Positions 13,043 to 38,844 of a DNA stretch of 43,413 bases are shown here, in pieces. The notes beneath the pieces were generated by a model that worked only from the letters and a program-made list of their open reading frames with translations, ran no database searches and was not told the origin of the DNA. This DNA comes from Fibrobacter sp. UWT2 (lineage in GTDB: Bacteria > Fibrobacterota > Fibrobacteria > Fibrobacterales > Fibrobacteraceae): contig NZ_FRBF01000022.1 of NCBI RefSeq assembly GCF_900142545.1, positions 1 to 43,413 of the forward strand, given 5' to 3'. How positions within the stretch are numbered: the first letter of the stretch is position 1; every line of letters starts with the position of its first letter. The position numbers and the translations under genes are program-made.

Positions 13043-13076
13043 TTCTTGCATTAGCACAGAATTATCCTAGAGGAAG

Positions 13077-14072: not shown

Positions 14073-15743
14073 TTGGCGTCTGCCGCTTGCCTTGGCGCAT
14101 TCGCGACCACCACATCGATGGCTGCAGAAACCTACGCAGGAACCTTCTTTGACGAAAACGGAGCCTATTACGGTCCGGATTGCGACAAGGATAAAAACTA
14201 TTCCGGTGCCTATTATACGGGTAATTACGAAAGCCCGTTCAAAAAGGTTTTGGGCAAGACCGATGCCGAAATTCAGGAAAAGATGGATGCCCTTTGGAAT
14301 CATTATTTTAAGGGTGATGATAATTCCAAGGTTTATTATGACAGGGGTAGCGAAGCCTACATCAAGGACATTAACAACAACGACGTCCGTTCAGAAGGCA
14401 TGTCTTACGGCATGATGATTGCCGTGCAGACGGGTCACAAAGAAGAATTCGACAAGCTCTGGAACTGGGCGAAGAACCACATGTGGCACAAAAGTGGCGG
14501 CTGGGACGGCTATTTCGCATGGCAGCGTAACGACAGCGGTACTGGTGGCGATGACAACTGCGCACCTGATGGCGAAATGTACTTTATGATGTCTTTGCTT
14601 TTCGCAGCCAACCGCTGGAACGACAGCAAGTACATGGAAGATGCCCAGTACATCTTGAAAAAGATGTGGGACAACGGCCAGCATAGCCTTTTCAACCCGC
14701 AACACTATGTGATTACATTCCAGCCGCAGGGTAACGAAAACAACTTCTCTGACCCGTCTTATGACTTGCCGGCATACGTCGATCTTTTCGCCCGTTGGTC
14801 CACCTCCAATCAGGACAAGTGGTCTAAGGCCGCGAAGGCAACGCGCGATCACTTGTACAAGTCTTCCAACACCAAGTCTGGCTTGTTCAGCGACTATAAC
14901 AACTTTGACGGAACCCCGCACGGCGTAAGCTACAATGGTAACGCCGAAAAGTACATGTACGATGCCATGCGCTGTGCCATGAACTTCGGTATGGACTACT
15001 ATCTGTTCGGTGTTGATTCTGCCCGTCAAGAAGAAATGGCCCGCCGCATTATCGATTTCTTTGAAAAGGATGGCTACAAGCACGCCCGCTTTAACTGGGA
15101 TGGCTCTAATCCGCAGGAACAGTATACGCAAGGCGAAGCCGGTGCAAATGCAGTTGCTGCCATGGTTTTGATTAACGATTCCAAATACGATGCCGCCGTC
15201 AAGAAAAACTTGGAGTTGGCATGGGATACTAAGTTCATGACCGGTCAGTACCGCTACTACGATGGCCTGGTGCATTACCTTGCCATGCTCCACTTGAGCG
15301 GCACCTTCAAGATTTGGAAGCCGAAGCCGAATGTCGAATCTGAAGAAAAGACCATTACCGAAACCGAAATCAACGGCGTGACCTATAACGACGGCGACAA
15401 GATCGATTACTTCGAAGGTTGCAAGCTCTACAAGGCAACGATTGCTGCAAAGTCTACTCCGGACTCTACCGTTACGAAGCCTGATTCTACCATCACTTCG
15501 CCGGATTCGACGATTTCCATTGGCGCTTCTGTTGCCTTGAACAACAACGTTCGCGTGTGGTCCACCAACAGCGCAATCGTTATCGAAAACGCACCGGCAG
15601 GCACCAAGTATACGGTCACTGACCTCAACGGTCGCGTGCTCTCGGCATCGAAGATTGCAACTTCGACCCAGGAAGTCCGCCTCGCCAAAACGGGCCCGAT
15701 GCTTGTCATTGTCGGCAACAAGGCATACAAGGTCGTGAAATAG
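14073..15743 (+). CDS. Glycoside hydrolase family 8 enzyme, probably xylan-active (5' frameshift)
   Basis: The open frame is 556 residues from a TTG at 14073; the natural start is probably ATG 14039 in another frame. The (alpha/alpha)6 barrel of GH8 is indicated by RSEGMSYGMMIAV, whose Glu (codon 14394-14396) matches the general acid, and by the APDGEMYFMMSLLFAANRW block, the family signature in the form I recall from reducing-end exo-oligoxylanases. Xylan oligosaccharides are therefore more likely substrates than cellulose, but this is inference. After about residue 400 come a spacer with repeated PDST units and a C-terminal domain (TVTDLNGRVL to NKAYKVVK) that resembles a type IX secretion sorting domain. 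It is convergent with the GH26 gene across a shared terminator. Confidence 0.85.
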   Translation: MASAACLGAFATTTSMAAETYAGTFFDENGAYYGPDCDKDKNYSGAYYTGNYESPFKKVLGKTDAEIQEKMDALWNHYFKGDDNSKVYYDRGSEAYIKDINNNDVRSEGMSYGMMIAVQTGHKEEFDKLWNWAKNHMWHKSGGWDGYFAWQRNDSGTGGDDNCAPDGEMYFMMSLLFAANRWNDSKYMEDAQYILKKMWDNGQHSLFNPQHYVITFQPQGNENNFSDPSYDLPAYVDLFARWSTSNQDKWSKAAKATRDHLYKSSNTKSGLFSDYNNFDGTPHGVSYNGNAEKYMYDAMRCAMNFGMDYYLFGVDSARQEEMARRIIDFFEKDGYKHARFNWDGSNPQEQYTQGEAGANAVAAMVLINDSKYDAAVKKNLELAWDTKFMTGQYRYYDGLVHYLAMLHLSGTFKIWKPKPNVESEEKTITETEINGVTYNDGDKIDYFEGCKLYKATIAAKSTPDSTVTKPDSTITSPDSTISIGASVALNNNVRVWSTNSAIVIENAPAGTKYTVTDLNGRVLSASKIATSTQEVRLAKTGPMLVIVGNKAYKVVK

Positions 15744-25375: not shown

Positions 25376-26365
25376 TTAGTCTACGGCTATGCTTTTAAGG
25401 CAATTGTTGAATTCGGGGACATTTGAAACAGTGTAGAAGTCCACTACTCTAGATTGTGAACCCCTTTTGGAATCCGGTAAGAACCCATTACGGATCTTTT
25501 CTAGATCTGTTTCGGGCTTAGCTTTGCACAAGTCCTTGTTCACTACTTTTTGCGTGTAGCTGCCGGTACATGTGGTAGAACCGCTCGATACTTCCAGGCT
25601 CAGGTCAGCGGAAAGCAGGCCGTTTTTTTCATAATTCAGTTCGACCTTGTTGACCTTGAATGTGTATGTCTTTTCGCCTATCGAAAATGTCTGGCTTGTT
25701 TTCGATGTCTCGATGATTTTGATGTTGTTGTCCTTGATGGCCGCTTCGTTATTCTTGGTTGTTTCTTTATTGATCTGCAGGAGGCTAGGGAAGCTGGGAA
25801 AGATATAGTCTATTTGGCCTGCCAGGATACCGTACAATGTGGGCATGAACAGAGAATTCGTGTAGACGGCTTTTTCGATGTCTTCGAGGTACTTGTCGAA
25901 GAAGTATTCAATCTCCTTTTTGATTATCCCCTTGGAGAAGGACAACGAGATTGCCTTGAAGGCGTCGTCGCATGTGGCTTGCGGATTGTCCTTATCGTGG
26001 TAGCAGCCGGTATTGGTCCATGAGCCTTCGATGTCTCCGTTATTGTCTCCTACATAGATGTCCCCGTGGACGGTGTGGTTGGGGTACAATACCAGCGTAT
26101 CTCCGGTTAGCTCGAATTCAATGCTGTCGACATTGTCGGTAGGCGAGAGACTTTCCCAGGAAAAATCGTTGCCGTCCTGGACGCATGCGTCTACGGCATC
26201 ATCGGGCGTGATGATTAACAGCTGTTTCGCCTTGTCTACGGTATAGGTACCCGAGGTGGAAACGGAGTAGACGGTTTCGTCGTTGTTGGCGCTTGAAGAG
26301 TTGTCGTCACCGCAGGCAACAATAAAGAATACCGATGCCGCAGCGGCAATCAGCTTTTTTTTCAT
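25376..26365 (-). CDS. Hypothetical lipoprotein
   Basis: A 329-residue protein that I do not recognise by function. The signal peptide MKKKLIAAAASVFFIVAC ends in the lipobox IVAC and is followed by GDDNSSSANND, the short acidic/serine stretch common after the lipid cysteine in this organism (compare the GH45 lipoproteins). The mature part contains short beta-like segments (YSVSTSGTYTVDKAKQLL) and paired cysteines. A ribosome-binding site AAAGGAG precedes the ATG. It is probably an outer-membrane lipoprotein of the Fibrobacter type. Confidence 0.7.
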   Translation of the reverse strand: MKKKLIAAAASVFFIVACGDDNSSSANNDETVYSVSTSGTYTVDKAKQLLIITPDDAVDACVQDGNDFSWESLSPTDNVDSIEFELTGDTLVLYPNHTVHGDIYVGDNNGDIEGSWTNTGCYHDKDNPQATCDDAFKAISLSFSKGIIKKEIEYFFDKYLEDIEKAVYTNSLFMPTLYGILAGQIDYIFPSFPSLLQINKETTKNNEAAIKDNNIKIIETSKTSQTFSIGEKTYTFKVNKVELNYEKNGLLSADLSLEVSSGSTTCTGSYTQKVVNKDLCKAKPETDLEKIRNGFLPDSKRGSQSRVVDFYTVSNVPEFNNCLKSIAVD

Positions 26366-26479
26366 GATATGTTCTCCTTTAAGGGGTGTTTAGTTTGTCT
26401 GTACCGCTAAATTACTAAATCACTTTTGGGAAAAAAGTAAAAGGATTGTCCAATTTTTGCTTGGATTCGTGACATTTTT

Positions 26480-26508
26480 TTGACAATGCACTTGGATTTG
26501 AATATTTT
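26480..26508 (+). promoter_or_regulatory. Promoter of the GLUG-repeat protein gene
   Basis: A perfect TTGACA (26480-26485), a 17-nt spacer and TATTTT (26503-26508) precede the ribosome-binding site AAAGGAG at about 26516-26522. Confidence 0.7.
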
Positions 26509-26528
26509 TTATATAAAAGGAGAATATG

Positions 26529-28487
26529 ATGAACAAAGTTTGGATTCTGCTGTTCGCTTTGGTTGCTATGGTAAATGCAGCCGACAGCTTGTCATTCGTA
26601 ATACATGCCGACCAGAATGGCGGAACAGGATTGAAGTATGAGTACAAAAATTGTACTGCTACAAAGTGCATTCTTTTTTGGCAGGATTCCATAAAGCGCG
26701 AAGGCTATATTTTCCAAGGATGGACGTTGCAAAAAGATGCCCTTGACACTTTTTATGTTGCAGGGTCCAGAATAGAACTGCCGTCTGTTGCAGACGGCGA
26801 CACCATAACTTTTTATGCGAAATGGTTTGAAGTCAAAAAACCGAAGAAGGTGAATGGGTGCTACCAGATTGCTAATGCCAACGAACTTTACGGATTGGCA
26901 TACACCGTAAACGGGCAAGACAGTTTTGAAGAAGAAAGCAATATATGCGCTGAATTGATTGCGGATATTGTGGTGAACAAGAATGTCTTGGATTCCAAGG
27001 ATTCACTGGCTGCGGATGCGAAACGACTGTTGCAATGGCTCCCCATAGGTAATTCTTACCATCATTTTTCAGGGCGAATCAACGGAAAGGGCCATACTAT
27101 TAGTGGTTTGTATTTTGACAATTCTCAGCAAGGTGTTATAGCGCTTGTGGGGTACGCTAAGGACAGTGTTATCATTGATAGTTTGGGTATAGTTGATTCT
27201 TATTTTGTTGGTGAGAATTCGATTGCCGGATTTGTTGGCGGCACAAGCACGCATACGAAAGTCGCTATCAACAATTCCTATGTCCACATGACAATTAAAG
27301 GAAATATGGCTGGCGGCCTTGTAGGCATGGTGCGGGATTCGTCTTCTGTTTCCGTAAGTCGATCTCATTATTCAGGCTTGTTGACCCATTATAATAAAGT
27401 TTATGAACTGGGCGGTTTAATTGAATGTGTCGGGCCAAAGTCTGTGATACAGATAAAAGATTCCTACAACGAAGGATATGTCTATACGTCTTATCACGAA
27501 TCTTTAAGCGATTCTGTTATCGTGGGAGGCCTTATTGGAAGTGTAGGGGAGCTGAGCGGTATATTTACCCCTAATGAAAAATATATTGATACGTTGATTA
27601 TCGAAAATAGTTGCAACAAGGCTCCGCTTGAAAGCAGTGGCGAGGTTGGCGGCCTTGTCGGCAGGATCTTTAGCAAATATAGCGTTATCAAAAATTCGTA
27701 CAATACGGGTGAATTGAACGGCCTGACGTCTGTTGGCGGGCTTGTTGAGTATATGAGCGGGACGATGGTAATGTCTAATTCCTATAATAGCGGTGCGCTT
27801 CGGGGTGGTAAAAAAGTTGCCGGGTTAATTGCTCGTATAGAGGACTCCGACCTGAATATTTCTACCTCGTATAATACCGGCAATGTGGTTGCTTTTGACA
27901 GGGGTGGTTACGTGAGTCCAGACGCAAGCGGTCTTATTGGAATCCTGAGCGAAAGTAAAGTGAAGGTCGCCAATTCGTACAATCAAGGTTCAGTACAAGA
28001 AGAATATGGTGAGCGTACGCTTAAAGGTGCAGGATTGATAAAAACCCAGAATGTGGGGGCTTCTTTCAAAAATTCTTATACTGTAGGCAGCGCCTTGGCT
28101 TACGATGCGCTGCTGACTTGCCAAAATTGCGAGTTTCCTGACATGTTCGAAAATGTCTTTTACGAAACGCTGACGGCTGACGATTCTGTTGTTGCGCATG
28201 CTCCGGAGGATTTTACCAATGGGACAATTGCGTACTTGTTGAACAGTTTCCGTGGTGATGGCGTGAATGGCCAGGTATGGGGCCAGAAGGTCGGCACGGA
28301 TCCGTATCCGGTCTTGAACGGTGCTGGCGTTGAAGGGTATAATCCGGGCAAAACTGCTATAAGGGCCATGAAGGGTCCCGCTAAAAAGGCGAAATTCGGC
28401 ATTTATGACGTTAAGGGCCGTTTCATCCCGAATATGAACCCTAGACATCGCTTCCAGAAATTTCTATTATTGCCCCCGCAACGGTAA
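26529..28487 (+). CDS. Secreted GLUG-repeat protein with InlB-type B-repeat
   Basis: A 652-residue exported protein. ATG 26529 is preferred over 26526 because it sits 6 nt from GGAG. A signal peptide (MNKVWILLFALVAMVNAA) is followed by an InlB B-repeat-like unit at about residues 22-105 (GGTG, then EGYIFQGWTLQ, ending in ITFYAKWFE). The rest is a series of GLUG-type repeats with GGLVG or GGLIG cores and NSYNTG-type turns, forming a right-handed beta-solenoid. Such proteins are surface adhesins or are exported by dedicated routes. The end, KFGIYDVKGRFIPNM, starts like a sorting domain but then stops after about 15 basic residues, so it looks truncated. The aspartokinase promoter lies inside this end. 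Confidence 0.78.
   Translation: MNKVWILLFALVAMVNAADSLSFVIHADQNGGTGLKYEYKNCTATKCILFWQDSIKREGYIFQGWTLQKDALDTFYVAGSRIELPSVADGDTITFYAKWFEVKKPKKVNGCYQIANANELYGLAYTVNGQDSFEEESNICAELIADIVVNKNVLDSKDSLAADAKRLLQWLPIGNSYHHFSGRINGKGHTISGLYFDNSQQGVIALVGYAKDSVIIDSLGIVDSYFVGENSIAGFVGGTSTHTKVAINNSYVHMTIKGNMAGGLVGMVRDSSSVSVSRSHYSGLLTHYNKVYELGGLIECVGPKSVIQIKDSYNEGYVYTSYHESLSDSVIVGGLIGSVGELSGIFTPNEKYIDTLIIENSCNKAPLESSGEVGGLVGRIFSKYSVIKNSYNTGELNGLTSVGGLVEYMSGTMVMSNSYNSGALRGGKKVAGLIARIEDSDLNISTSYNTGNVVAFDRGGYVSPDASGLIGILSESKVKVANSYNQGSVQEEYGERTLKGAGLIKTQNVGASFKNSYTVGSALAYDALLTCQNCEFPDMFENVFYETLTADDSVVAHAPEDFTNGTIAYLLNSFRGDGVNGQVWGQKVGTDPYPVLNGAGVEGYNPGKTAIRAMKGPAKKAKFGIYDVKGRFIPNMNPRHRFQKFLLLPPQR
28442..28470 (+). 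promoter_or_regulatory. Promoter of the aspartokinase gene, inside the preceding gene end
   Basis: TAGACA (28442-28447), a 17-nt spacer and TATTAT (28465-28470). It overlaps the last 15 codons of the GLUG-repeat gene and predicts a start of transcription near 28477, leaving a leader of about 135 nt before the aspartokinase ATG. Confidence 0.55.
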
Positions 28488-28611
28488 AACACCGTCGCAG
28501 ACATAGACAAATAAACCAAGTGGCTGGCCAGATGGGTAGGCTTGGGCACGACAACCGCGAGGAAAGTGGTTGCGCTCGAAGCCGAGAGGTTTGGTGGCCC
28601 GAAAGGAAAAA
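28477..28611 (+). promoter_or_regulatory. Structured leader of the aspartokinase gene, candidate regulatory RNA
   Basis: The leader can form several helices: ACGGT/ACCGT (28481-28485 with 28491-28495), CCAAG/CTTGG (28516-28520 with 28541-28545), CAACCGC/GTGGTTG (28552-28558 with 28566-28572, loop GAGGAAA) and CTCG/CGAG (28575-28578 with 28583-28586). AAACC (28513-28517) can instead close the set with GGTTT (28589-28593). GGGC (28544-28547) can pair with GCCC (28597-28600), next to the ribosome-binding site. There is no T tract, so any control would act on translation. It does not match the lysine riboswitch as I know it. Confidence 0.45.
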
Positions 28612-29934
28612 ATGAGTCAAAGAATCGTATGCAAGTTCGGCGGCAGCTCTGTCGCCGATGCCGGCCAGTTCAAGAAGATCAAGGCCATCGTTGAATCCGA
28701 CAAGAACCGCAAGGTCATCGTCGTTTCCGCCCCCGGCAAGCGCAATCCTAAGGAAACCAAGCTTACCGACCTCCTCTACAGCACCTACGACCTCGCCTCC
28801 AAGGGCCTCGACTTCTCGACCCCGTGGAACCTGATCCGTCAGCGCTATGACGAAATCTGCAAGGACCTCGGTCTCGAAGACAAGCTGACCGAAGACCTGG
28901 ACAGTCTCGAGGACAAGCTCAAGAACCACCCCGAATCCGTGAGCACGGACTTCCTCGTGAGCCGTGGCGAATTCCTGTGCGCACGCCTCATGGCCAAGTA
29001 CCTGGGCGCAAACTTCGTCGACACCTTCCCGCTGATTACCTTCGACGACAAGTACCGCATTACGCCGAAGACCTACGAAGATATCGCGAAGACCTTGTCT
29101 GACGAAAACCAGCTTTACGTGCTGCCGGGCTTCTATGGTAGCAACCTCCGTGGCGAAGTCAAGACCTTCAGCCGTGGCGGTTCCGACATCACGGGCGCAA
29201 TCCTTGCCAACGGCATCGATGCCGCCAAGTACGAAAACTGGACCGACGTTTCGGGCATGCTCATGGCTGACCCGCGCATCGTCGAAAATCCGCTGCCCAT
29301 CGAATACGTGAGCTACCGCGAAATCCGCGAACTTGCCTACTCCGGCGCAAGCGTGCTCCACGACGAATCCATCGCCCCGTGCCGCGCGAAGAAGATTCCT
29401 ATCAACATCCGCAACACGAACCGCCCGCAGGATCCGGGTACCATCATCGGCCCCACTCCGGAAGAAGCAAAGCTCCCGATTACGGGTGTTGCCGGCCGTA
29501 AGGGCTTCTCGATGATTTACATCGAAAAGTCCATGATGAACAAGGAAGTCGGTTTCGGCCGCCGCGTGCTCGCCGTGCTCGAAAGCGAAGGCCTCTCCTA
29601 CGAACTGTGCCCGAGCGCCATCGACTCCATGAGCATCGTAGTGGATAGCAAGGCCCTCGACGCCGTGCAGGACGTGGTCCTCGAAGACATCACGCAGCAG
29701 ATGCGCCCCGACCGTATCAAGGTGTTCCCGGGTATCTCGCTGATTGCAACCGTGGGTCATGGCATGACGAACAAGATCGGTGTGGCTGCAAAGCTCTTCA
29801 CCGCTCTCGCCGAGAACAAGGTGAACGTCCGCATTATCGACCAGGGTTCTTCGCAGATCAACATCATCACTGGTGTTGACGAAGCCGACACCGAGAAGGC
29901 CATCAAGGCCATCTACGGCGCCTTCGTGAAGTGA
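28612..29934 (+). CDS. lysC: Aspartokinase
   Basis: A 440-residue aspartate kinase, catalysing the first step to lysine, threonine and methionine. ATG 28612 is chosen because AAAGGA lies just upstream and MSQRIVCKFGGSSVADA is the classical start; Lys8 is in the KFGGSS ATP-binding loop. The aspartate and nucleotide sites follow (VSRGEFLCARLM, then FSRGGSDITGA, and WTDVSGMLMADPRIV). Two ACT domains fill the C-terminal third (GFSMIYIEKSMM, and ISLIATVGHGM to NIITGVDE), where end products bind in this family. It is a mono-functional enzyme with no homoserine dehydrogenase fusion. A structured leader precedes it. Confidence 0.95.
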   Translation: MSQRIVCKFGGSSVADAGQFKKIKAIVESDKNRKVIVVSAPGKRNPKETKLTDLLYSTYDLASKGLDFSTPWNLIRQRYDEICKDLGLEDKLTEDLDSLEDKLKNHPESVSTDFLVSRGEFLCARLMAKYLGANFVDTFPLITFDDKYRITPKTYEDIAKTLSDENQLYVLPGFYGSNLRGEVKTFSRGGSDITGAILANGIDAAKYENWTDVSGMLMADPRIVENPLPIEYVSYREIRELAYSGASVLHDESIAPCRAKKIPINIRNTNRPQDPGTIIGPTPEEAKLPITGVAGRKGFSMIYIEKSMMNKEVGFGRRVLAVLESEGLSYELCPSAIDSMSIVVDSKALDAVQDVVLEDITQQMRPDRIKVFPGISLIATVGHGMTNKIGVAAKLFTALAENKVNVRIIDQGSSQINIITGVDEADTEKAIKAIYGAFVK

Positions 29935-29943
29935 CACCTTCGG

Positions 29944-29985
29944 TGTCATCCTGAGTGAGGCGCGAAGCGCTGAATCGAAGGATCT
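29944..29985 (+). repeat. Intergenic dispersed repeat of the CCTGAG...GAAGGATCT type
   Basis: The 42-nt segment contains GTCATCCTGAGTGAGG, the small inverted repeat GCGC-GAA-GCGC and then GAATCGAAGGATCT. I know this pattern as a short intergenic element found in many copies in diverse bacterial genomes. Only one copy lies in this window. Its left end overlaps a perfect hairpin TGACACC-TTC-GGTGTCA (29932-29948) that includes the aspartokinase stop codon. Confidence 0.6.
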
Positions 29986-29994
29986 GCCTTTACC

Positions 29995-30027
29995 GCCCCC
30001 GACCTTAACGGCCGGGGGCTATTTTTC
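29995..30027 (+). terminator. Intrinsic terminator after the aspartokinase gene
   Basis: GCCCCCGACC (29995-30004) pairs with GGCCGGGGGC (30010-30019), one mismatch, across TTAAC and is followed by TATTTTTC. Confidence 0.85.
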
Positions 30028-30045
30028 TAAAATTGATGTATTCAT

Positions 30046-30489
30046 ATGAGTAATTTGTTTAAAGTGGTTCTTCTGTTTTCTTGCGTTTTGTTTGCGCAGG
30101 TAGTGCCTGCGCCCGTTGATTCTTTGTCGCAGGAAGATGACGAGGAAGAAACTGCAAAAGAACATCATTTGATTTATTATGATTATGAATTATTTTTTGG
30201 TGACCAGTATTATCTAGACGGGAAACCCGTAGACGACTTGTCTGAGATAAGGGAAATTTTGCTTGCGAACGAAAATTCCAGGCATTCTGCCAAGGTTTCG
30301 AATGTGCTTATGGGAGTTGCATATGTATTTGGAGGGGTGGCAGGTTTTTTGCTTGGATATGGGCTTATCCAGGATCCTCCTTATCGCAACTACATGTTGA
30401 TTGGTTCTGCCGCTTCTTTTACTATAGGTGTTGTCGGTGCAGGAATCTCATCGAATTACCTTGAAAAAGCGATTGACGAATATTGGTAG
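30046..30489 (+). CDS. Hypothetical membrane protein
   Basis: A 147-residue protein of unknown function. An N-terminal signal peptide (MSNLFKVVLLFSCVLFAQ) is followed by an acidic stretch (QEDDEEETAKE) and two membrane segments at about residues 88-105 and 115-133, both rich in Gly and Ala. It precedes a lipoprotein with the Fibrobacter major paralogous domain by 8 nt, so the two are probably co-transcribed. No enzyme motif is seen. Confidence 0.6.
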   Translation: MSNLFKVVLLFSCVLFAQVVPAPVDSLSQEDDEEETAKEHHLIYYDYELFFGDQYYLDGKPVDDLSEIREILLANENSRHSAKVSNVLMGVAYVFGGVAGFLLGYGLIQDPPYRNYMLIGSAASFTIGVVGAGISSNYLEKAIDEYW

Positions 30490-30497
30490 GTGAAATA

Positions 30498-31070
30498 ATG
30501 CGTTCTATTGTTTTGTTGCCTTTGATTTCCTTGGTGGCCTTGATTACAGCCTGTTCCGAGTCATTCACCGATCCGCGTGACGGGCAAAGTTACGACATCG
30601 TACAAATCGGTTCGCAGACCTGGATGACTGAGAATTTGAATTACGAAGTCGAGGGGAGCGCGTGCCCCGAAGGTGAGAATCGCAATTGCTCCAAGTACGG
30701 GCGGCTCTACACTTGGGATATGGCCCGCACCGTATGCCCCGAAGGCTGGCACTTGCCCGACAGCGCAGACTTCGAAAAACTGATGGCAAGCGTCGGTGGC
30801 GCCGATGTGGCAGGCTATGCGCTCAAGTCGACAAGCGGCTGGTTCAAGAAAGGGAACGGCTCAGATGATCATGGCTTTAATGCACTGCCCGCTGGTTACA
30901 GGCAGGGCAACGGCAAGTTTGACGGCATCGGCGGCTATGCGCACATCTGGAGCGCCGTTGAAACACCTGACGGCCTCGCTTACTACATGCTCCTAGATTT
31001 CAGCATCAAGGCCGCCAAGCTCAGCGCCTTCGGCAAGGATGAAGCAAGATCCGTTAGGTGCGTGAAGTAG
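30498..31070 (+). CDS. Lipoprotein with Fibrobacter succinogenes major paralogous domain (copy A)
   Basis: A 190-residue protein. ATG 30498 is preferred because AGGTGA lies just upstream and it gives a clean lipoprotein signal peptide ending ITAC; an in-frame TTG at 30483 would add five residues. The mature part is almost entirely the domain I know as TIGR02145/Fib_succ_major: DGQSYDIVQIGSQTWMTENL, then YGRLYTWDMARTVCPEGWHLP, then GFNALPAGYR, IWSAVE and a final RSVRCVK. The function is unknown; these domains occur in many copies per genome on surface lipoproteins. It ends directly against the stop of the convergent AT-rich gene. Confidence 0.9.
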   Translation: MRSIVLLPLISLVALITACSESFTDPRDGQSYDIVQIGSQTWMTENLNYEVEGSACPEGENRNCSKYGRLYTWDMARTVCPEGWHLPDSADFEKLMASVGGADVAGYALKSTSGWFKKGNGSDDHGFNALPAGYRQGNGKFDGIGGYAHIWSAVETPDGLAYYMLLDFSIKAAKLSAFGKDEARSVRCVK

Positions 31071-32435
31071 TTATTTCTTCTGCTTGCTTTTCAAAGGGAT
31101 TTTATTTTCCTTTAAAGCAGTAACTGCATCGGATGCGAGTTTTTTTACTGCTTCAGTATGATCTTGAATTAATTTTCTTAGTAGAGGGACATATGGTTGC
31201 AGTTTTTCTTTGCACAAATCTCCTGTAATACCAAGAAATGGAAATAGTTTAGATAGCAACATCCAATCGGTTTTATTTGTAGGAGAGTCCGATTCAATTT
31301 TATCTAACACGTGTGTGAGATTGGATGAGAAATCGGGATCTTCTAGTTGTTTTTTTGCATTTTCTGGAATGTGATTGCTAATCACATTCAAAGTGTGCTT
31401 TAATTGAGTGTCTATTCCTTTTACATTAAATTCCTTTCTCAGAGAATCTTTGTACGGATCTAGTTTGCGTGCGAAAATTTGTTCTATGGGCTCTTTAATT
31501 TCTGGATTCTCTAGTATGGGAATCAGATTCTTAAATTTCCCTAAATCAAAGCCTTTTTTATATTCTTCTTTTCTTAGAATCAATTTTGAAAGGTCGTCAA
31601 GTTTTTCTTCAGGCATCCATTCGAATGAATTTCCTAATTGGGTGTATTGGTCTATCCACTTATTGGGATGTTTAGCACCATTATGCGCTAACAGATTAGG
31701 ATTGTTAAGAATACGTTCAAGAACTTTACTGAAGAAGTGATATTTTTCATCATAAGCAAAGCGCCCGAACGGAATAGAAAATGCTAACGCTTTATCTTGC
31801 TGCGTCCAGTTTTCCAAATTCTTTGTGAGAAGTTCTTGATAGTTATTGGAATTAAATAATGTTTGGTGAAATAGTTCGTCGTATTTTTTCTTGCACTCAT
31901 CTTGATATTCTCTTCCAAGATAATTGCATACAATTGCAACGCATATGTTCTTGACGCGTTGTTCTTCTTGATATGATATACAATCATGAATATATTTATC
32001 CCATTCTTGATTGTACTTAGATTGATCAGGGAATAATTGAGCTAAAGATCGACCGAATTCTCTTATCTGAGATTCATTTTGAGGGATATAATTGCGGATT
32101 TGGAGAAAATAGTCTTTTATACATAGAGGAGCTAACTCTATGTAGGTTTTATCATGACTTAACGGCTCAAGCGTAAGGGTGCTTTTCCATGGGCTTTTAG
32201 GAAATTTGCCTAACTTCTGTTTCTTTTGGGCTTCTTCAACAATCTGTTTGAGTATGTCAACGGCATTGACTCCGCCATTTTCATTGGCAACAGGCAAATA
32301 ACCGATTTCATAGAAGGTTTTGTTGTTTCCCCATACGGTAGCCTTTGTTCCGAGCCCAAGAACGGAAGCGATTAAATTCAAAAATTCCCAAAAATTAGGG
32401 AAAAGCGTGTATTTTGTGCCTGCTGGTTTGCTCAT
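31071..32435 (-). CDS. Hypothetical protein in AT-rich block (454 residues)
   Basis: I do not recognise this protein. It has no signal peptide and begins MSKPAGTKYTLFPNFWEFLNLIASVLGLG. It looks largely helical and is rich in Lys, Glu, Asn and Leu, with the C-terminal third (about residues 300-450) resembling a helical bundle. The base composition is clearly more AT-rich than the flanking genes and codon use is different, suggesting horizontal acquisition. It is last in a three-gene minus-strand series with a 106-nt gap to the next gene. It ends one base from the stop of copy A of the major paralogous lipoprotein. No catalytic motif is visible. Confidence 0.6.
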   Translation of the reverse strand: MSKPAGTKYTLFPNFWEFLNLIASVLGLGTKATVWGNNKTFYEIGYLPVANENGGVNAVDILKQIVEEAQKKQKLGKFPKSPWKSTLTLEPLSHDKTYIELAPLCIKDYFLQIRNYIPQNESQIREFGRSLAQLFPDQSKYNQEWDKYIHDCISYQEEQRVKNICVAIVCNYLGREYQDECKKKYDELFHQTLFNSNNYQELLTKNLENWTQQDKALAFSIPFGRFAYDEKYHFFSKVLERILNNPNLLAHNGAKHPNKWIDQYTQLGNSFEWMPEEKLDDLSKLILRKEEYKKGFDLGKFKNLIPILENPEIKEPIEQIFARKLDPYKDSLRKEFNVKGIDTQLKHTLNVISNHIPENAKKQLEDPDFSSNLTHVLDKIESDSPTNKTDWMLLSKLFPFLGITGDLCKEKLQPYVPLLRKLIQDHTEAVKKLASDAVTALKENKIPLKSKQKK

Positions 32436-32541
32436 ATTGATTTTCGTTTTTAAAGAGAACGTTTACTTCGGAATTATATAATTTAGGAGCTATTCTCTAA
32501 AAAAGCGGGGTACGAATGTATTTTTTGAGGAGAACCTGAAC

Positions 32542-33009
32542 TTATTTCCAGTTTTCCTGCGATTCTTCGTTTTCTACACGCTTTATGACTTTTTTGTGGA
32601 AATCATTCCAGAAGTCTATTCCGAATTTTCTTATGACGGCCCTTTTGGCATCGGAATTTTGTTTGCCTACGACAAGGCCTTCGTTCTCAAAAAGATAATT
32701 CCGTAAGGCGTTCAAGTATGCTAGCGCTTTCGCTAGTCTGGCTGCTTCTGGGTGATCATCTTCTAAAGTCTTTTGAGATGCGTTTGCCTTGGGAGGCTTT
32801 TTCCAAAATTTTTTTACCCGCTCGTAACTGAATTCAAAGTCTAAATCGTCTTCGTGTTGCGCTAACTCGTAGCGTTCCGCCGCTTTTGAAAAATCCAATT
32901 GTCTTTCCTTGAACATTTCGGAAAGATCGTTGCGAACGGCACGCCATTGTTCCGCTAGCTCTTTTTCTGCAGAGGTTAAATCTCTTTTATTGCAACGGGC
33001 AGCTGTCAT
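32542..33009 (-). CDS. Hypothetical charged helical protein in AT-rich block
   Basis: A 155-residue cytoplasmic-looking protein of unknown function, very rich in Lys, Glu, Ala and Asp, with long predicted helices and no membrane segment. It overlaps the end of the cysteine-rich lipoprotein gene by 23 nt (32987-33009), which indicates translational coupling. An ATG inside the upstream gene is used as start; a later start cannot be excluded. It has the same atypical composition as its neighbours. Confidence 0.55.
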   Translation of the reverse strand: MTAARCNKRDLTSAEKELAEQWRAVRNDLSEMFKERQLDFSKAAERYELAQHEDDLDFEFSYERVKKFWKKPPKANASQKTLEDDHPEAARLAKALAYLNALRNYLFENEGLVVGKQNSDAKRAVIRKFGIDFWNDFHKKVIKRVENEESQENWK

Positions 33010-33424
33010 TTACGAGATGCTTAATCTTGTCTTCGGGTAGTTTTTGTGAGCATTCCATATCCTGAATTGCTTTAGCGCATTTAGAAAGACGGCTGCTTTT
33101 TTCGGCAACACCACTGCATGAATGGAGACATGCGTCTAGGAGGATATACTCTACTTCGATGTCAAAACGATCACAATGAAGTTTGTTGGCTACGACAGCT
33201 CCGGCAAGTGCCGCGCCGCCTATTTTGGCTGCTTCTCCGGCAAATTTTTTCCATTTGGAGGGTTCCTCTTTTATTTCAGGAGTTTTTTCATTGCCGTCAC
33301 ATTTGCATTCGACTTGAGGACAGTTTGACTCTTCGTTAGAAGCGGATTGTTTAGCATGGGACTCGTTGCAGCTGCACACGAGAGCGAGGAGAGAGAGCGA
33401 AAAGGGAAATAACAGTTTTTTCAT
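32987..33424 (-). CDS. Cysteine-rich lipoprotein with glycine-zipper segment in AT-rich block
   Basis: A 145-residue protein. ATG 33424 is preferred over an upstream TTG (33433) because it gives MKKLLFPFSLSLLALVCSC, a lipoprotein signal with the lipid cysteine at residue 19. The mature part has nine more cysteines in three groups (NCPQVECKC, HCDRF to LHSC, and KCAKAI to SCPLQ), suggesting disulfides or metal binding. Between them is a Gly/Ala segment (GEAAKIGGAALAGAVVANK) that could insert into a membrane. It is first of the three-gene minus-strand unit. The function is unknown. Confidence 0.6.
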   Translation of the reverse strand: MKKLLFPFSLSLLALVCSCNESHAKQSASNEESNCPQVECKCDGNEKTPEIKEEPSKWKKFAGEAAKIGGAALAGAVVANKLHCDRFDIEVEYILLDACLHSCSGVAEKSSRLSKCAKAIQDMECSQKLPEDKIKHLVNDSCPLQ

Positions 33425-33433
33425 GGTAATCAA

Positions 33434-33620
33434 TATAAATAAAAAATTGTTCTTCGGAAAAAAATTGAGGAAAAAGTGACATTTTCTTGAAAATGAGCAA
33501 AAATGGCTTTTCTAAAAAAAGATTCGTGCCCCGTTTTGCCCCTTTGGGGGGACCTAAATTTAAAGCGTATCCGGGCTGGATGCGCTTTTAACAATCCATA
33601 ATCAAAAAGGATTCAACTCT
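33434..33620. other. AT-rich intergenic region with strong hairpin between divergent units
   Basis: This 187-nt gap separates the minus-strand AT-rich genes from the + strand HicA-like gene. It holds a CCCCTTTGGGG inverted repeat near 33539 and a strong hairpin, AAAGCGTATCC (33562-33572) with GGATGCGCTTT (33578-33588), one T-G pair, loop GGGCT. A TTGAAA near 33486 with TTCTAA 17 nt later is a weak promoter candidate. It may be a leader, a small RNA with its terminator, or a shared control region. Confidence 0.4.
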
Positions 33621-33863
33621 ATGTCAAACATCTCAAATGATTCCAAAATCAATGAAATGTGCAACGCGATGCTGAAAAGTGGTCGATGGGAACTTACCCG
33701 ACACTCGAAACATCCGATTCTACGGCATCTGGCTGATGGGGCGACCAAGTTCTTCATTGTCCCATGCACGCCAAGTGACCCGCGCGCCTTTGCGAACTTC
33801 CGAAGGGATTACAATCGCTATATCCGCGCATTCCTCATCCAAACCGGCGTCATCATCGCCTAA
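33621..33863 (+). CDS. HicA-like small protein
   Basis: An 80-residue protein. The segment RWELTRHSKHPILRH, followed by FFIVPCTPSD and FANFRRDYNRYIR, resembles the dsRNA-binding fold of HicA toxins and related phage proteins, with a His in the position of the catalytic residue. HicA proteins cleave mRNA and normally pair with HicB; no HicB is visible next to it. The next gene starts 31 nt later on the same strand and encodes a radical-SAM-like protein, an odd partner. It could also be a free-standing regulator. Confidence 0.45.
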   Translation: MSNISNDSKINEMCNAMLKSGRWELTRHSKHPILRHLADGATKFFIVPCTPSDPRAFANFRRDYNRYIRAFLIQTGVIIA

Positions 33864-33894
33864 ATCACAACAAAAATAACAACAGGAGATTAGC

Positions 33895-34794
33895 ATGTCT
33901 AAGTTTATTCCGCTTACAATCATTCCACAAAATAATTCCAAAGATTCTTTGGGGTTCTCACTCTGTTATTTCGAAGAAGAAATTTATGGTGATGGCGCTT
34001 GCGCAGTGCAAGCTGTCAAGAAAATACGAGATAGCCACAAGGATGTCGGTATTCGTTTGCGTATTCCCACTACAAGGAGCTCTTTCGATCCGGAAGAGAT
34101 TCTGAGGGTCTCGAAAATCGCCAAAGAAAATGGCGTTGGCATCTCGGTATTGGTTGATTATTCGCAACTCGGCATTCTGCGTCCTATGGCGCATCTGATT
34201 ACAGAGGTGGAGGTTCCCGTTGATTTCCTTGTTCCCGAATTTGTCGAAAAAAAAAATCGCGACGCCTTTGCTCAGAATATTTCGTTTGAAGGTCTTTACC
34301 GCAAGATTGAATCACTGCGTCAAGTTAACGAGAAGTTGAGCGTCAAATTCAGGACGGTAGTGAGCGAAAACAACTACACCGAAATCTTGGCGGATTCTCT
34401 TCAAAGATTCAAGAACTGCCAGTGGAAAATTTTACGACAGGATGCTTCCGGAATGCAAAAAGCCTCTGACTTCAAGTTTTTCTCGTTTCTCCGTAATAAC
34501 GTTATGGATACGACGCTCTCTGTACAAGTCAAGAACTCTACGAAAGAGCGTGCCTTGGTAGTGTCTTCCAACGGGAGCCTCTGTCAGACTGAAAATGTTG
34601 AATGTATGCCTTTGAAGGGGCTTACCGAAGTATCGATGGATGATTTGTGTAGTTGGTTGGAGTTTTCTTCTGAAGACAAGGTACAAGATTGCGAAACAAC
34701 CCAACTTGTATTCTCGATGAAGAAGATGTTTGGCCTCTTCACGGATGCTGATGCTTCTGATGAAATGTGGATTAATTCCATCCTTAATGGGTAG
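33895..34794 (+). CDS. Radical-SAM-like protein lacking the iron-sulfur cysteine motif
   Basis: A 299-residue protein. Its middle (DVGIRLRIPTTRSSFDPEEIL, then SKIAKENGVGISVLVDYSQLG, then SVKFRTVVSENNYTEI and CQWKILRQDASG) follows the strand and helix order of a radical SAM TIM barrel. The last part recalls the N-x-x-E and RWKVFQ-type block of viperin-like enzymes. Yet the N-terminal CxxxCxxC cluster is absent and the seven or so cysteines are scattered, so it cannot be a normal radical SAM enzyme. It may be a degenerate partner of the true radical SAM enzyme that follows 36 nt later. The assignment is from pattern only. Confidence 0.45.
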   Translation: MSKFIPLTIIPQNNSKDSLGFSLCYFEEEIYGDGACAVQAVKKIRDSHKDVGIRLRIPTTRSSFDPEEILRVSKIAKENGVGISVLVDYSQLGILRPMAHLITEVEVPVDFLVPEFVEKKNRDAFAQNISFEGLYRKIESLRQVNEKLSVKFRTVVSENNYTEILADSLQRFKNCQWKILRQDASGMQKASDFKFFSFLRNNVMDTTLSVQVKNSTKERALVVSSNGSLCQTENVECMPLKGLTEVSMDDLCSWLEFSSEDKVQDCETTQLVFSMKKMFGLFTDADASDEMWINSILNG

Positions 34795-34830
34795 GATTTG
34801 ATTCTGTAGCTACCTATAATGGAGGCTCTC

Positions 34831-36087
34831 ATGAAAAACTCCTTCATCTACACTCCGCTTCGCGTGCTGCTTGTGAGCAGTAATTTCTGCCGCAAGAACG
34901 AGCCTCGCGAGGCTTATGGAGCCAGCTGCCTTGCCGGAGCGTTCTGGAATAGTCCTGCTAATGCTGGCGATACGCTTGACGTGTTCACCAGCGACTTGAA
35001 TCGCTTTCAGAAGATGAACAGCGATTTCGATATCGACTGGAATCTCGTGGCTAGCGAGGTTGTCACCAGGGCGCTTATCGGTGGGTACAATGTGGTCGCG
35101 TTCAGCGTTTTCGGCTGGTGTGAGAAGATGGTTGCGCTCGCTGGCGCGGAACTTCGCCGACGCGTTCCGAACATCTTCATTATGCTGGGGGGAGCCTCCA
35201 TTTTTGGGAGTGAAGAGGAACTTCGCAGGCGTTTTCCGTTCGCGGATATGTTTACGCTCAGCTACGGCGAAAAGATATTCGCGAATTTACGCCATTATAT
35301 CAACCTGGGAGTTTCGCGTATGATGGATTTGCCCAAGTTTGGGGAACTTGAATCCCCGTATCTGTCGGGCGTCATCTCCCTTGGCGGTGGTGTTGATACC
35401 GTGCGGGCTGAAACTCGCCGCGGTTGCTCTTTCCGTTGTTCCTTCTGTAAGCATCGTGATACGCTTTCGGGAAAGGTGTACCGCATCGATAATTACGAGC
35501 GACATCTTGACGAACTCAAGTTGTTCAAGGATCGCGGGGTGAAAAAGCTGAACGTTCTGGATCCGCTCTTCAACGATTACGAAGGGCACGGGGAACAGTA
35601 CCTAAAGTTGATTCGCAAAGTCGGTTTCGCTGGAAAAGTCACGCTGCAGATTCGCCCGGAACTGCTGACGGAACGCTTCATGGAAGAGGCTTCGCTGAAT
35701 CCGAATGTGAGTTTCGAGATAGGCGTGCAGAGTCTTGATCCGGCTGTGTTGAAGACTATTCAGCGTGGCGGTTACAAGACCGAGGCGCAACTTCGCGAAA
35801 AGCTGGATCGTTGCAGGGAACTTGGGATCGCGACGATGGTCACCTTGATTTATGGGCTCCCGCTGCAGTCTTACGATTCTTTTGCCCGCGATATTGGGAT
35901 TGTCAAGAGCTATGGTGTCGGGAAGGTGGGTGCGTTCCCCTTGCAGGTTTACGAAGGGACGAAACTTGCCGAAGATATCGGGCAATATGGCCTTACCCTG
36001 AAAGAGGATGCCTTCGGTATCCCCGAAGTGGTTGACAATCCCTCGCACGATTTCGAGAAGATGCGGAGGCTTGCGGAGACCGCCTAG
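34831..36087 (+). CDS. B12-binding-type radical SAM protein
   Basis: A 418-residue protein. ATG 34831 is chosen because GGAGG lies 5 nt upstream; an in-frame ATG at 34819 would start before that site. Residues 10-150 form a Rossmann-like N-terminal domain of the kind that binds cobalamin (RVLLVSSNF, then NVVAFSVFGWCEKM, then FIMLGGASIFG), without the DxHxxG motif. The radical SAM cluster is C199, C203 and C206 in RRGCSFRCSFCKH. The barrel continues with FEIGVQSLD and GIATMVTLIYGLP, typical of this class. Members methylate unreactive carbons or modify peptides and cofactors. It follows the cluster-less radical-SAM-like protein, which suggests a two-protein modification system of unknown product. 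Confidence 0.85.
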   Translation: MKNSFIYTPLRVLLVSSNFCRKNEPREAYGASCLAGAFWNSPANAGDTLDVFTSDLNRFQKMNSDFDIDWNLVASEVVTRALIGGYNVVAFSVFGWCEKMVALAGAELRRRVPNIFIMLGGASIFGSEEELRRRFPFADMFTLSYGEKIFANLRHYINLGVSRMMDLPKFGELESPYLSGVISLGGGVDTVRAETRRGCSFRCSFCKHRDTLSGKVYRIDNYERHLDELKLFKDRGVKKLNVLDPLFNDYEGHGEQYLKLIRKVGFAGKVTLQIRPELLTERFMEEASLNPNVSFEIGVQSLDPAVLKTIQRGGYKTEAQLREKLDRCRELGIATMVTLIYGLPLQSYDSFARDIGIVKSYGVGKVGAFPLQVYEGTKLAEDIGQYGLTLKEDAFGIPEVVDNPSHDFEKMRRLAETA

Positions 36088-36099
36088 AAAAAGGTTCTT

Positions 36100-36126
36100 T
36101 CCCCGATGCTTTGCTAGGGGAGTTTT
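36100..36126 (+). terminator. Weak terminator after the radical SAM gene
   Basis: TCCCC (36100-36104) pairs with GGGGA (36117-36121) around a loop that can form a further GC/GC pair, then GTTTT. It lies in the 37-nt gap to the convergent GH11 gene. Confidence 0.45.
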
Positions 36127-36997
36127 ATCTCGTGAACTTTCTCACTCTCTGGCCGGGCTGGGCTCTTGCTCCGTCCGGCTTGTAGTATTTGAGAGGGGCT
36201 AGATTGCGGTCACTGGCGTGCGCATTGGGGGCACGGCGTTTTGCGATGGCCGTGGTGCCGGTGCTGTCTGCCGATTCGGTGATGTTGAAGTAGTCAATTT
36301 GAAAATAGTTGATGGAACTCTGCCCCTTATACCCTTCCACAAGCGCCATGACATCGGTTATCTTGCCCACCTTCAGGCCGTGCTCTTCCCACTTCTTGAA
36401 GTGGGCGGTAATGTCGACGTGCCCGCTATCGCGCTTGGTGCGTCGGATGCTGAAATACTGCTTGAACGAGGAGTCGCCCTGGACGCCCATGTGACTGTTG
36501 GCGGTGTTCTGCCAGATGTCGTAGGTGTCGCCATCGACGGTGAATTCGCCGAGCCTGGTTCCGAAAGTGGATGTGTCGGCTGTATCTTTGATTATCCAGT
36601 AGTCTATGATATAGAATTCGGTTTTCGGCTCGGTGGTATTGCCTTGGATGCCAACCAGAAAATAGGGGGTGCCGAAGCCGCCGCCTTTTGTGCGAAACTT
36701 GTAGTCCGCCGCAAAGTTGCCATGCTGGTCGAAGGTCTTTGGCTCGTCGAACTTGGGACCAAAGCGCACGATAGCGTCCGCGACCTTGGAGTAAACTAAG
36801 TAGCCGCCATCATCGTAGCACTCCAAATAAGCATTGTAGCCATCGCGCCAGACTTCGTAACTGTAGTTTGTACCGTCTATCGTGCCGGAGGCGTAGTTTT
36901 CGCCCTCCGCGGGCCATGCGTTAGGACACCTTTCCGCATAGATAGTCGTAGCCAAGCCCATGGTGAGGGCGATTCCTAAACCCACTAGATTCTTCAT
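36125..36997 (-). CDS. Glycoside hydrolase family 11 endo-1,4-beta-xylanase
   Basis: A 290-residue secreted xylanase. The signal peptide MKNLVGLGIALTMGLATTIYA is followed by the jelly-roll GH11 domain at about residues 30-240: YSYEVWRDGYN, GGYLVYSKV, then TEFYIIDYW with nucleophile Glu127, DTYDIWQNT, YFSIRRTKRDSGHVDITAHF and VEGYKGQSS with acid/base Glu221. It cuts internal bonds of xylan. After the domain come a short linker and a basic tail (residues 253-290, many Arg and Lys) with a YYKPDGAR motif also seen in the tail of the next secreted protein. Fibrobacter xylanases are known to carry basic terminal domains, and this may be a short form. Confidence 0.92.
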   Translation of the reverse strand: MKNLVGLGIALTMGLATTIYAERCPNAWPAEGENYASGTIDGTNYSYEVWRDGYNAYLECYDDGGYLVYSKVADAIVRFGPKFDEPKTFDQHGNFAADYKFRTKGGGFGTPYFLVGIQGNTTEPKTEFYIIDYWIIKDTADTSTFGTRLGEFTVDGDTYDIWQNTANSHMGVQGDSSFKQYFSIRRTKRDSGHVDITAHFKKWEEHGLKVGKITDVMALVEGYKGQSSINYFQIDYFNITESADSTGTTAIAKRRAPNAHASDRNLAPLKYYKPDGARAQPGQRVRKFTR

Positions 36998-37032
36998 GCT
37001 ACTAATATATACTTTTTGCGGCCCGGTGGGCG

Positions 37033-38193
37033 TTAATTCTGCTTAACCTTCGCGCCGTTCGCCTTGAAATACTGCGAATTCTCGTTCAGGGAACGGCTGT
37101 TCTGTAAACGCCCGTTCAGGAACAATTCGCGTTTTTGCGATTTTTCGTCGCGGGCATGGGATGCGTGGCGATTTTCGCGGGGTGCTTCGTAGATGCGGGT
37201 CGGCGGCTCCACGCTTGATTTCAGTTTCCACTTTTCAAGGGAGTCGAGGCCGGCGTTTCCGAGGACGGCAAGATCGTAGGCGATGGCTTTTATGGCGCCT
37301 GCGGCGTATGCGGTGTCGAGTTGTGCGGAGATTCTCGCACTGTCGGCGAGCGCGTGCGAGTCGTCGGTGCGGAACAGTTCCATGTCGACCCAAAATTCGA
37401 TTTCGTATTTTTTGCAGGCTTGCGCTACGGCGCGTTCGTAGTTGCCCACTGTCGTAGTTTCGGCATGGGCTTTGCCTGCGTCACTTGCGCCCACGCCATC
37501 TTGTACGGCGATAATGTCGGGCTTGAATCCGGCGGCAAAGAGTTCTTCGAAGAATGATTGCAACTTTTCCGACGTTTCCAGATTCTGGTTGTAGAACGGC
37601 GCGGCCATCACCTTCCAGCCCTTCGCCTGTGCGGCTTCGGTGACAGGCTTCAGGAAATGTTCCGTGAGTATTTCCGGCGTCGCATCGTCGCGTAGTCTGT
37701 CCCAGTAGTAGCGCGCGATTTCTTGCGGAATGTACACGCCTTCGACAACGCTCTCGCTCCCGTATAGCGAATGGATTTCTTCGAGTACCTTCAGGTTCCT
37801 TGACGCGAGCGTATCGAGTTGCTCGGCGGTTGGCGGGGTGTACCAATTTTCGCCATTGTAGTAGAGCCCGAGCCAAATCTTGGTTCCGGCCGTTTTGGCG
37901 GCCTCGATGCTTTTCGGGAACAGCTGATTGTTTTTGTATTGGGTATCTTGCAGAAACTCTAGTTCCGAAGGATAATACAGGTGTGTCGCTTCGACGGCGG
38001 CGTATTGCAAAACGACTTCGTCCATGCCGAGCGCGTGTAAGCGCTGGTGCATGTGCGTAATGGAATCTTGCGACTGGTAGGCGGTTGTCCAGCCTGCATC
38101 AAAAACGCCCGCGATTCCAGCGGCGTTTGCGCCGACAGCTCCGCACAAGAGTGCGGAGAATGCTAAGCGAGATATTGATCGCAAGGTGAACAT
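37033..38193 (-). CDS. Secreted DUF4434-like TIM-barrel protein
   Basis: A 386-residue exported protein. ATG 38193 is used because GGGGAG precedes it; an upstream TTG would add three residues. A signal peptide ends near ANAAG (about residue 25). The body resembles the DUF4434 family of putative glycoside hydrolases (GIAGVFDAGWTTAY, then KIWLGLYYNGENWYTPP, VEGVYIPQEIARYYW and FKPDIIAVQDGVGA). Acidic residues in the PQEIARYYW and WVDMELF strands are candidate catalytic ones. The C-terminus is basic and ends with QYFKANGAKVKQN, similar to the GH11 tail. Its substrate is unknown. It lies 35 nt upstream of GH11 on the same strand, so both may be in one unit. Confidence 0.65.
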   Translation of the reverse strand: MFTLRSISRLAFSALLCGAVGANAAGIAGVFDAGWTTAYQSQDSITHMHQRLHALGMDEVVLQYAAVEATHLYYPSELEFLQDTQYKNNQLFPKSIEAAKTAGTKIWLGLYYNGENWYTPPTAEQLDTLASRNLKVLEEIHSLYGSESVVEGVYIPQEIARYYWDRLRDDATPEILTEHFLKPVTEAAQAKGWKVMAAPFYNQNLETSEKLQSFFEELFAAGFKPDIIAVQDGVGASDAGKAHAETTTVGNYERAVAQACKKYEIEFWVDMELFRTDDSHALADSARISAQLDTAYAAGAIKAIAYDLAVLGNAGLDSLEKWKLKSSVEPPTRIYEAPRENRHASHARDEKSQKRELFLNGRLQNSRSLNENSQYFKANGAKVKQN

Positions 38194-38217
38194 GCTCCCC
38201 AAAAAATCAAGGAACCC

Positions 38218-38844
38218 CTAGGCGCGAGCTTCTGCGTGTTCCTTCAATTCCAAATAGAACTTACTTTTGGCGGTCAAATAGTACGGATACAGCCATAGGC
38301 ACGCTATGCCGAGCGTAAAGGTGCTCAGCAGCCACCAAGCCCAGAAACGGGCCTGCAGACAGAAAAATTCCCAGCGGTGGCCGTACATCATTTCTTTGCT
38401 TGCGGTAATGGCTTGCAGCGGAGTGTATTCGGGATGTTCGACGAGGATCAATTCCGTCATCGTGTAGGAATACGATTTCATGATGCCGGGAACGATCAAA
38501 AGAAGGAACCACAGCAGAAGCATGAGGTATTGGAGAATTTCTGTCGCGATGATTTTCAGGAAGTATCCTATGCTGCGGTATCCCCAAAACAGTCGTGCGT
38601 AAGAAGGTTTGATCTTAAGCGCTATATCCAAATAGCAAGCGATAAGGCCGATCCACAAAACCCATGTAAACGGCGTGCAGATGATTTCCCAGGCATAGTA
38701 GAGCGCGGAGCCTTCTTCCATAAAGAGCTGAGGGACCGAAATCCCCATAACGACTGCCAGGAATAGTAATAAAACCAGAGCCCCGTAAAGCCAGTGGCCG
38801 CCCATTGCGTTCCAGGCAAATTCTTTGATTTCTTTGTTATCCAT
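38218..38844 (-). CDS. DUF975 family membrane protein
   Basis: A 208-residue integral membrane protein with about five hydrophobic segments. The order of motifs fits DUF975: WLYGALVLLLFL, then LLWFLLLIVPGIMKSYSYTM in the centre, then ITASKEMMYGHRWEFF and TLGIACLWLYPYYLTAKSKFY. The function of the family is unknown. It ends 24 nt before the start of the DUF4434-like gene and could be first in a unit with it. It is divergent from the GDSL esterase gene. Confidence 0.85.
   Translation of the reverse strand: MDNKEIKEFAWNAMGGHWLYGALVLLLFLAVVMGISVPQLFMEEGSALYYAWEIICTPFTWVLWIGLIACYLDIALKIKPSYARLFWGYRSIGYFLKIIATEILQYLMLLLWFLLLIVPGIMKSYSYTMTELILVEHPEYTPLQAITASKEMMYGHRWEFFCLQARFWAWWLLSTFTLGIACLWLYPYYLTAKSKFYLELKEHAEARA

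Follow-up and report, generated by a model that had tools for sequence, protein, structure and literature searches.

A candidate envelope-anchored anti-phage gene pair and a separate accessory gene in a swappable slot downstream of lysC in Fibrobacter

Do three adjoining minus-strand genes of Fibrobacter sp. UWT2, a member of a genus that is a main rumen fibre degrader, form a single unit, and what might they do? The window analysed here is the whole 43,413-nucleotide stretch of DNA in which they lie, and the genome from which it comes measures 3.49 Mb. An earlier note on this DNA had described an AT-rich, horizontally acquired unit of three minus-strand genes, comprising a cysteine-rich lipoprotein, a charged helical protein and a longer helical protein, without recognisable families and possibly linked to envelope stress, competition or defence. 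All three open reading frames are present:

c0, 32987..33424, minus strand: predicted exported protein with a C-terminal six-cysteine domain
c1, 32542..33009, minus strand: charged, all-helical protein of 155 aa, predicted cytosolic partner of c0
c34, 31071..32435, minus strand: protein of 454 aa, a module separate from c0/c1

The open reading frame of c0 extends from a TTG codon (32987-33433, 148 aa), and its start appears better placed at the ATG at 33424 (145 aa), a choice backed by relatives. The overlap of c0 and c1 is 23 nt (32987-33009), as first read, and c34 follows c1 on the same strand after a gap of 106 nt. From sequence comparison, all three are judged to be genuine genes, because homologues exist elsewhere (the closest homologues of the window c1 are 54-67% identical and lie in other genomes, and those of c34 show 28-33% identity over near full length), because the cysteines of c0 are invariant, and because dN/dS is low (0.09 for c1 and 0.11 for c0) in the single close pair measured, L040/L041, as saturation affects most of the others. 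GC content is 35.4% in c34, 42.5% in c1 and 45.0% in c0, against 51.1% for the window, and GC at third codon positions (GC3) is 0.32, 0.42 and 0.42, respectively, versus 0.48-0.79 in the five neighbours measured. The unusual composition and codon use attributed to the block therefore hold as low GC and low GC3, the latter being the sole codon measure, but the AT-rich dip is mainly that of c34, because the GC of c0 is no lower than that of the nearby viperin-like gene (43.2%).

Profile searches of 167 Fibrobacterota genomes were used to survey the three genes. c1 is present in 18 genomes and c34 in three (G000, G052 and G143); the clear relatives of c34 are two, those of G052 and G143, and profile searches found neither c0 nor c1 in these two genomes. 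Of the 18 genomes with c0/c1, 17 lack c34, apart from a marginal match in G044 that covers 63 residues and lies on a different contig from c0/c1. Because each thus occurs without the other, c0/c1 and c34 are two independent modules. Whether the block moves as a unit, a check that the earlier note had proposed, was thereby answered in the negative across the 167 genomes, and the one-unit reading is rejected, as c34 and c0/c1 are largely non-co-occurring. A shared strand and the short distance from c1 to c34 would suit an operon-like unit in which c34 serves as the effector of c0/c1, but the separate distributions make such a unit extremely improbable and strongly disfavoured, and a promoter-like match (32501-32473) lies just upstream of c34, although such matches stand near shuffle level in the region (8 versus a shuffle mean of 6.1, about equal). 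All that can be stated about c34 is its rarity, its accessory nature and its association with HicA-like genes, one of which lies 417 nt upstream of it in G052.

The pairing of c0 with c1, on the other hand, is strict, as c0 directly adjoins c1 in all 18 c1-bearing genomes among the 167 searched. c0 is present in 19 genomes, one by a marginal match (8.9e-4) in a genome without c1. The order is c0-c1 in the window, G032, G058, G064 and G100, c1-c0 in G029, G044, G059, G061, G066 and G075 (the G066 contig begins just before c1), and c0-c1-c0 in G022, G026, G031, G042, G047 and G094, while G151 has c0 followed by a doubled c1 match, resembling G026. In G026 itself (L049 9269-10270 and 10292-11152), c1 has been duplicated in tandem and fused, and a second Cys-rich repeat is present in one c0. 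The neighbourhoods of c0/c1 vary between genomes. By profile search the pair falls in one family, within two genera; searching with a single sequence added a weak match of c0 over 51 residues (2.2e-4) in G006, from a third genus of the family, which the c0 profile search did not return. A peptide-pattern scan of genome contigs, conducted with one pattern and for c1 only, found seven loci, all titled Fibrobacter. c0/c1 is thus a strict two-gene cassette, known to date only from Fibrobacter and a close relative. Plasmid or phage origin was considered and rejected: tblastn found no match for c0 or c34 in plasmids or phages and none for c1 in phages, and viral contigs contained no relatives of c0, c1 or c34.

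The place that these genes occupy is bounded as follows:

swappable slot, 31071..33620, no strand: from the FISUMP lipoprotein gene stop codon to the HicA-like gene start
HicA-like gene (c3), 33621..33863, plus strand: PADLOC HicA-like match at 1.5e-13, right border of the slot
viperin relative, 33895..34794, plus strand: pVip profile match at 2.3e-15 over residues 70-260, neighbour outside the cassette
B12-binding/radical SAM protein, 34819..36087, plus strand: PADLOC candidate PDC-M51A at 2.2e-67, neighbour

To the left of the slot, the gene at 28615-29934 is one that we take to be lysC (aspartokinase). The immediate left neighbour, described earlier as a housekeeping-type lipoprotein, is indeed a lipoprotein and was identified as one with a FISUMP domain; no literature joining Fibrobacter with FISUMP was found. 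The HicA-like gene and the radical SAM group that had been recognised beside the block are both borne out by the PADLOC matches above.

Comparison of 20 lysC-adjacent stretches of 1.5-20 kb, some of them ended by contig edges, showed that relatives beside lysC hold differing cargo. In the eight genomes whose FISUMP copy is at least 76% identical (G026, G029, G036, G038, G046, G059, G062 and G066), a cut chosen after seeing the alignment results, similarity to the window ends no more than two bases from the FISUMP stop codon (31070), and with the less similar FISUMP copies of other genomes it ends earlier. In G038, similarity resumes at the HicA-like start (33621) and runs for 3.4 kb at 91.7% DNA identity, and the slot holds 4.2 kb comprising an AriA-like ATPase gene (best 7.7e-13), a small gene and an open reading frame that is P-loop ATPase-like by eye. 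An AriA-like module (3e-21) also lies to the left of the HicA-like gene in G036. G026, whose LysC is 100% identical, carries a distant c0-c1-c0 set (c1 28% identity) ~9.6 kb downstream of lysC; with eight lysC places used, c1 is within 5 kb of lysC in 1 of 16 genomes and within 20 kb in 4 of 16. We conclude that 31071..33620 is a slot with exchangeable contents in a defence island downstream of lysC, filled here by two independent modules. Horizontal acquisition is thus upheld by the patchy occurrence of c1 and c34, by the other cargo of G038 and by the solely distant c1 of G026, and the comparison across related genomes, a check set beforehand, showed that the same three genes are not constant at this place.

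There is no tRNA near the slot, the window's only one being a tRNA-Trp at 273-346, and repeats in 30400-37200 are weak and short. Rfam gave no match above gathering score in 28000-38500, and no integrase family was found among the eight genes scanned (block and borders). A mobile element bounded by an integrase or by repeats was rejected on the tRNA, repeat and Rfam results, and because no tRNA is nearby, repeats are weak and no integrase family was found, the cargo is likely exchanged by homologous recombination in the flanks. In G059 (L053 15180-15248 and 16702-17309), a second copy of the final 55-69 nt of the FISUMP gene stands beyond an open reading frame that is P-loop ATPase-like by eye, hinting, in one genome among the loci searched, at integration at the FISUMP 3' end. 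Two other low-GC stretches were noted in the window, at 13001-14500 (about 44-45%) and at 25501-28500 (42-47%), the latter containing a 653-aa open reading frame (26526-28487) that adjoins lysC.

The genes of the right flank are oriented divergently to c0/c1/c34. The HicA-like gene had no Pfam or NCBIfam match at E <= 1. In the viperin relative, the CxxxCxxC radical SAM motif is absent, the aligned positions reading NSKDSLGFSL where two intact Fibrobacter viperins have CNYGCKHC and CNYHCNFC, and the GGEP stretch of these two is absent as well. The gene is 86-96% identical in G038 and G046, with dN/dS of 0.13-0.30, and likewise sits between HicA-like and B12/radical SAM genes in both; we read it as a conserved viperin, probably inactive, that is partnered by another radical SAM enzyme. 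HicA-like genes are a recurrent companion in Fibrobacter islands, with copies in 27 of the 80 genus genomes (L115-L144). In four genomes the distance to a high-scoring viperin, taken between match edges, is 41-97 nt, and 7 of 31 copies are within 5 kb of MkoA-like helicases.

The c0 protein is predicted to comprise a signal sequence with a relaxed lipobox (VCSC), a linker, a Gly/Ala-rich hydrophobic segment at about residues 61-79 and a C-terminal six-cysteine domain of about 60 residues (84-142). Its description as cysteine-rich proved apt, with the six cysteines kept in 21 of 21 c0 sequences, and a hydrophobic stretch stands just N-terminal of the cysteine domain in 19 of the 21, being Gly/Ala-rich in 18 of these. 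The N-terminus is more variable: 11 of the 21 carry the relaxed lipobox pattern (by pattern match), in five the N-terminus is hydrophobic in another way, weakly so in one, and in the other five, which belong to the triple form, it is a charged stretch lacking a signal peptide. Modelling of c0 gave a poor result (mean pLDDT 51), with helices at 89-102, 109-126 and 131-140 at middling pLDDT, and the fold search with it was uninformative (best Foldseek E 2.5, VIA Z 5.0). Three library matches of c0 fall below cutoff, to blaZ (0.009), the pore-forming toxin BSAP5b (0.092) and phrog_8801 (0.024), and all three start at the signal region. The partner c1 is, as had been noted, both charged and helical, with 37-45% charged residues and a top 19-residue hydropathy of at most 1.21 in 16 of 16 sequences and an all-helical AlphaFold2 model (mean pLDDT 78, pTM 0.67). 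The fold search with this model was uninformative too (best Foldseek E 3.4 against PDB and 1.8 against viral structures, VIA Z 3.6). One of 16 c1 members matches NNH3 (NACHT N-terminal helical domain 3) at E 0.0019, at 18.6 bits against a curated cutoff of 27; we place no reliance on this or the three weak c0 matches. The idea, formed by eye, that c1 is an XRE/Cro-type helix-turn-helix protein found no such family among the Pfam matches of the 16 members at E <= 0.1, and comparison of the model with the PDB gave no convincing match to that fold, which is not proof of absence.

Homology searches of all three proteins returned nothing above cutoff, in agreement with the earlier note. No library match at curated cutoff was found for c0, c1 or c34, nor any family of PADLOC-DB (2023) at E <= 0.1, and the c34 relative of G143 had no PADLOC family at E <= 0.01. 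Among solved structures searched by sequence, A1 and A3 had no match and A2 had two insignificant ones. Literature searches on Fibrobacter defence systems or islands and on viperin pseudoenzymes gave, among the matches listed, no title in which c0, c1 or c34 is named.

The link to defence that had been suggested as a possibility is supported by genomic context, although co-location in a hotspot is no proof of defence function. The position test covered 80 genus genomes, 16 of them with c1 (G022 and G031, which belong to the other genus, were left out), with distances measured from match edge to match edge; uniform gene placement in a 3.2 Mb genome was assumed and contig ends were ignored, and the thresholds for MkoA-like helicases (at least 228 bits) and viperins (at least 200 bits) were chosen after seeing the matches listed. 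Among those matches, 5 of the 16 genomes have a high-scoring MkoA-like helicase no more than 5 kb from c1 (binomial P 4e-11), and 1 of the 16 has a high-scoring viperin at that range (P 0.006). A HicA-like gene lies within 5 kb of c1 in 7 of 16 (P 4e-15) and of c34 in 3 of 3 (P 7e-8). The expected co-location rates are 0.04-0.42% per gene, and the counts are not fully independent, because the G029 and G059 loci are near-identical. Taken singly, neighbouring genes have matches to models of MkoA/MkoB, viperin, type IIG restriction and PDC-M72A, and five of 10 scanned have no PADLOC match at 1e-5. Counting PADLOC families did not separate the neighbours from 16 random 10-kb regions (32/83 versus 72/119 families/proteins, at 1e-10), and this control contains generic helicases and a type I restriction enzyme. 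PMC11834463 places Fibrobacter among the rumen genera richest in defence systems.

Our main reading, to which we give a probability of roughly 0.4, is that c0/c1 would be an envelope-anchored candidate anti-phage pair in the swappable island slot downstream of lysC, with c34 separate from it. c0 would be exported and tethered to the membrane, either through a lipid anchor or through one hydrophobic segment, presenting a disulfide-type six-Cys helical domain outside the cytosol, with c1 as its putative obligate cytosolic partner. Phage contact at the envelope might then bring about a change in c0, whose hydrophobic Gly/Ala segment could occlude or permeabilise the membrane, and c1 may either hold c0 in check or relay the signal. 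c34, the second module, would be a separate accessory gene keeping company with HicA-like genes.

Strict pairing with short spacing or overlap would also be expected of a toxin-antitoxin-like addiction pair, in which c0 is a membrane-active toxin and c1 a cytosolic antitoxin, kept for stabilising the island; the patchy distribution, the Gly/Ala hydrophobic segment and the weak similarity, below cutoff, between c0 and a pore-forming toxin model are consistent with this as well. Most c0 proteins, however, combine export signals with a disulfide-type domain, the triple form carries two copies of c0 for one of c1, and G094 has a further c0-like copy ~4 kb from the pair, though without the hydrophobic segment, so that we regard an addiction pair as unlikely. 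The same export signals and cysteine-rich domain could point to a function at the surface or in competition (an immunity lipoprotein, an adhesin accessory or a redox protein), carried in the hotspot as accessory genes generally are, and FISUMP-type proteins are common in the same regions. Set against this are the constant cytosolic partner of c0 and close neighbours that are repeatedly defence-type genes, and such a function seems improbable to us. That c0, c1 and c34 are neutral open reading frames hitchhiking in a recombination hotspot, with no selected function of their own, would agree with the patchy distribution and the lack of above-cutoff family matches, but the dN/dS of about 0.1 in L040/L041, the invariant cysteines of c0 and the strict pairing across divergent subtypes make it very unlikely.

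Several known systems resemble the candidate anti-phage pair in part. Mokosh is close in position, as in 5 of 16 genus genomes high-scoring MkoA-like genes are found 0.9-1.8 kb away from c1 (among the matches listed), the pair is flanked by two MkoA-like helicases in G029 and G059, and G029 has a weak MkoB match beside one of them; however, c0/c1 match no PADLOC model, and 11 of 16 genomes have no high-scoring MkoA-like helicase less than 5 kb from c1 among the matches listed. PARIS/OLD-type ATPase modules (AriA, GajA, OLD) are represented in the same slot in G038 and to the left of the HicA-like gene in G036, a likeness of position and not of homology, whereas c0, c1 and c34 have neither a PADLOC match nor an above-cutoff ATPase or nuclease domain. 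Phage superinfection-exclusion lipoproteins are small envelope proteins that stop infection either on the surface of the cell or during injection. c0, as a small, apparently exported protein, would be like them by analogy of function alone, but it has a constant cytosolic partner, and neither c0 nor c1 was found in the phage records and viral contigs searched, nor c0 in plasmids. The HicA-prokaryotic viperin modules (classes 9/10 of PMC10865869) recall the right border of the slot, where a HicA-like gene is followed by a viperin relative, and c34 and c1 are often near HicA-like genes; nevertheless, these are neighbours only, c0, c1 and c34 have no HicA or viperin profile match, and the viperin relative here lacks the CxxxCxxC motif.

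A bolder proposal, which we put forward tentatively and with some doubt, is that c0/c1 may represent, as the first member to be described, a new anti-phage system of the Fibrobacter lineage, made up of an exported, membrane-tethered six-cysteine sensor/effector and an obligate cytosolic helical partner, with c0-c1, c1-c0, c0-c1-c0 and fused c1-c1 subtypes exchanged between defence islands, and that c34 may be another new defence gene, unrelated to the pair and linked to HicA-like genes. Part of the Fibrobacter defence islands matches no family, and c0/c1 stands out as a compact candidate whose genes are strictly paired and whose unusual architecture would join an exported Cys-rich protein to a cytosolic partner. 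The region downstream of lysC is a natural place to seek further Fibrobacter defence genes.

Finally, a four-gene set adjoins c0-c1-c0 in four genomes (L042 4357-8242, L043 11677-15562, L045 4114-7999 and L046 11724-15609). In L043 it consists of an HTH-PIN-ankyrin gene (PDC-M72A), a viperin-like radical SAM gene, an AAA_17-HAD gene and a phosphoribosyltransferase gene, and the set looks like a nucleotide-modifying defence operon.
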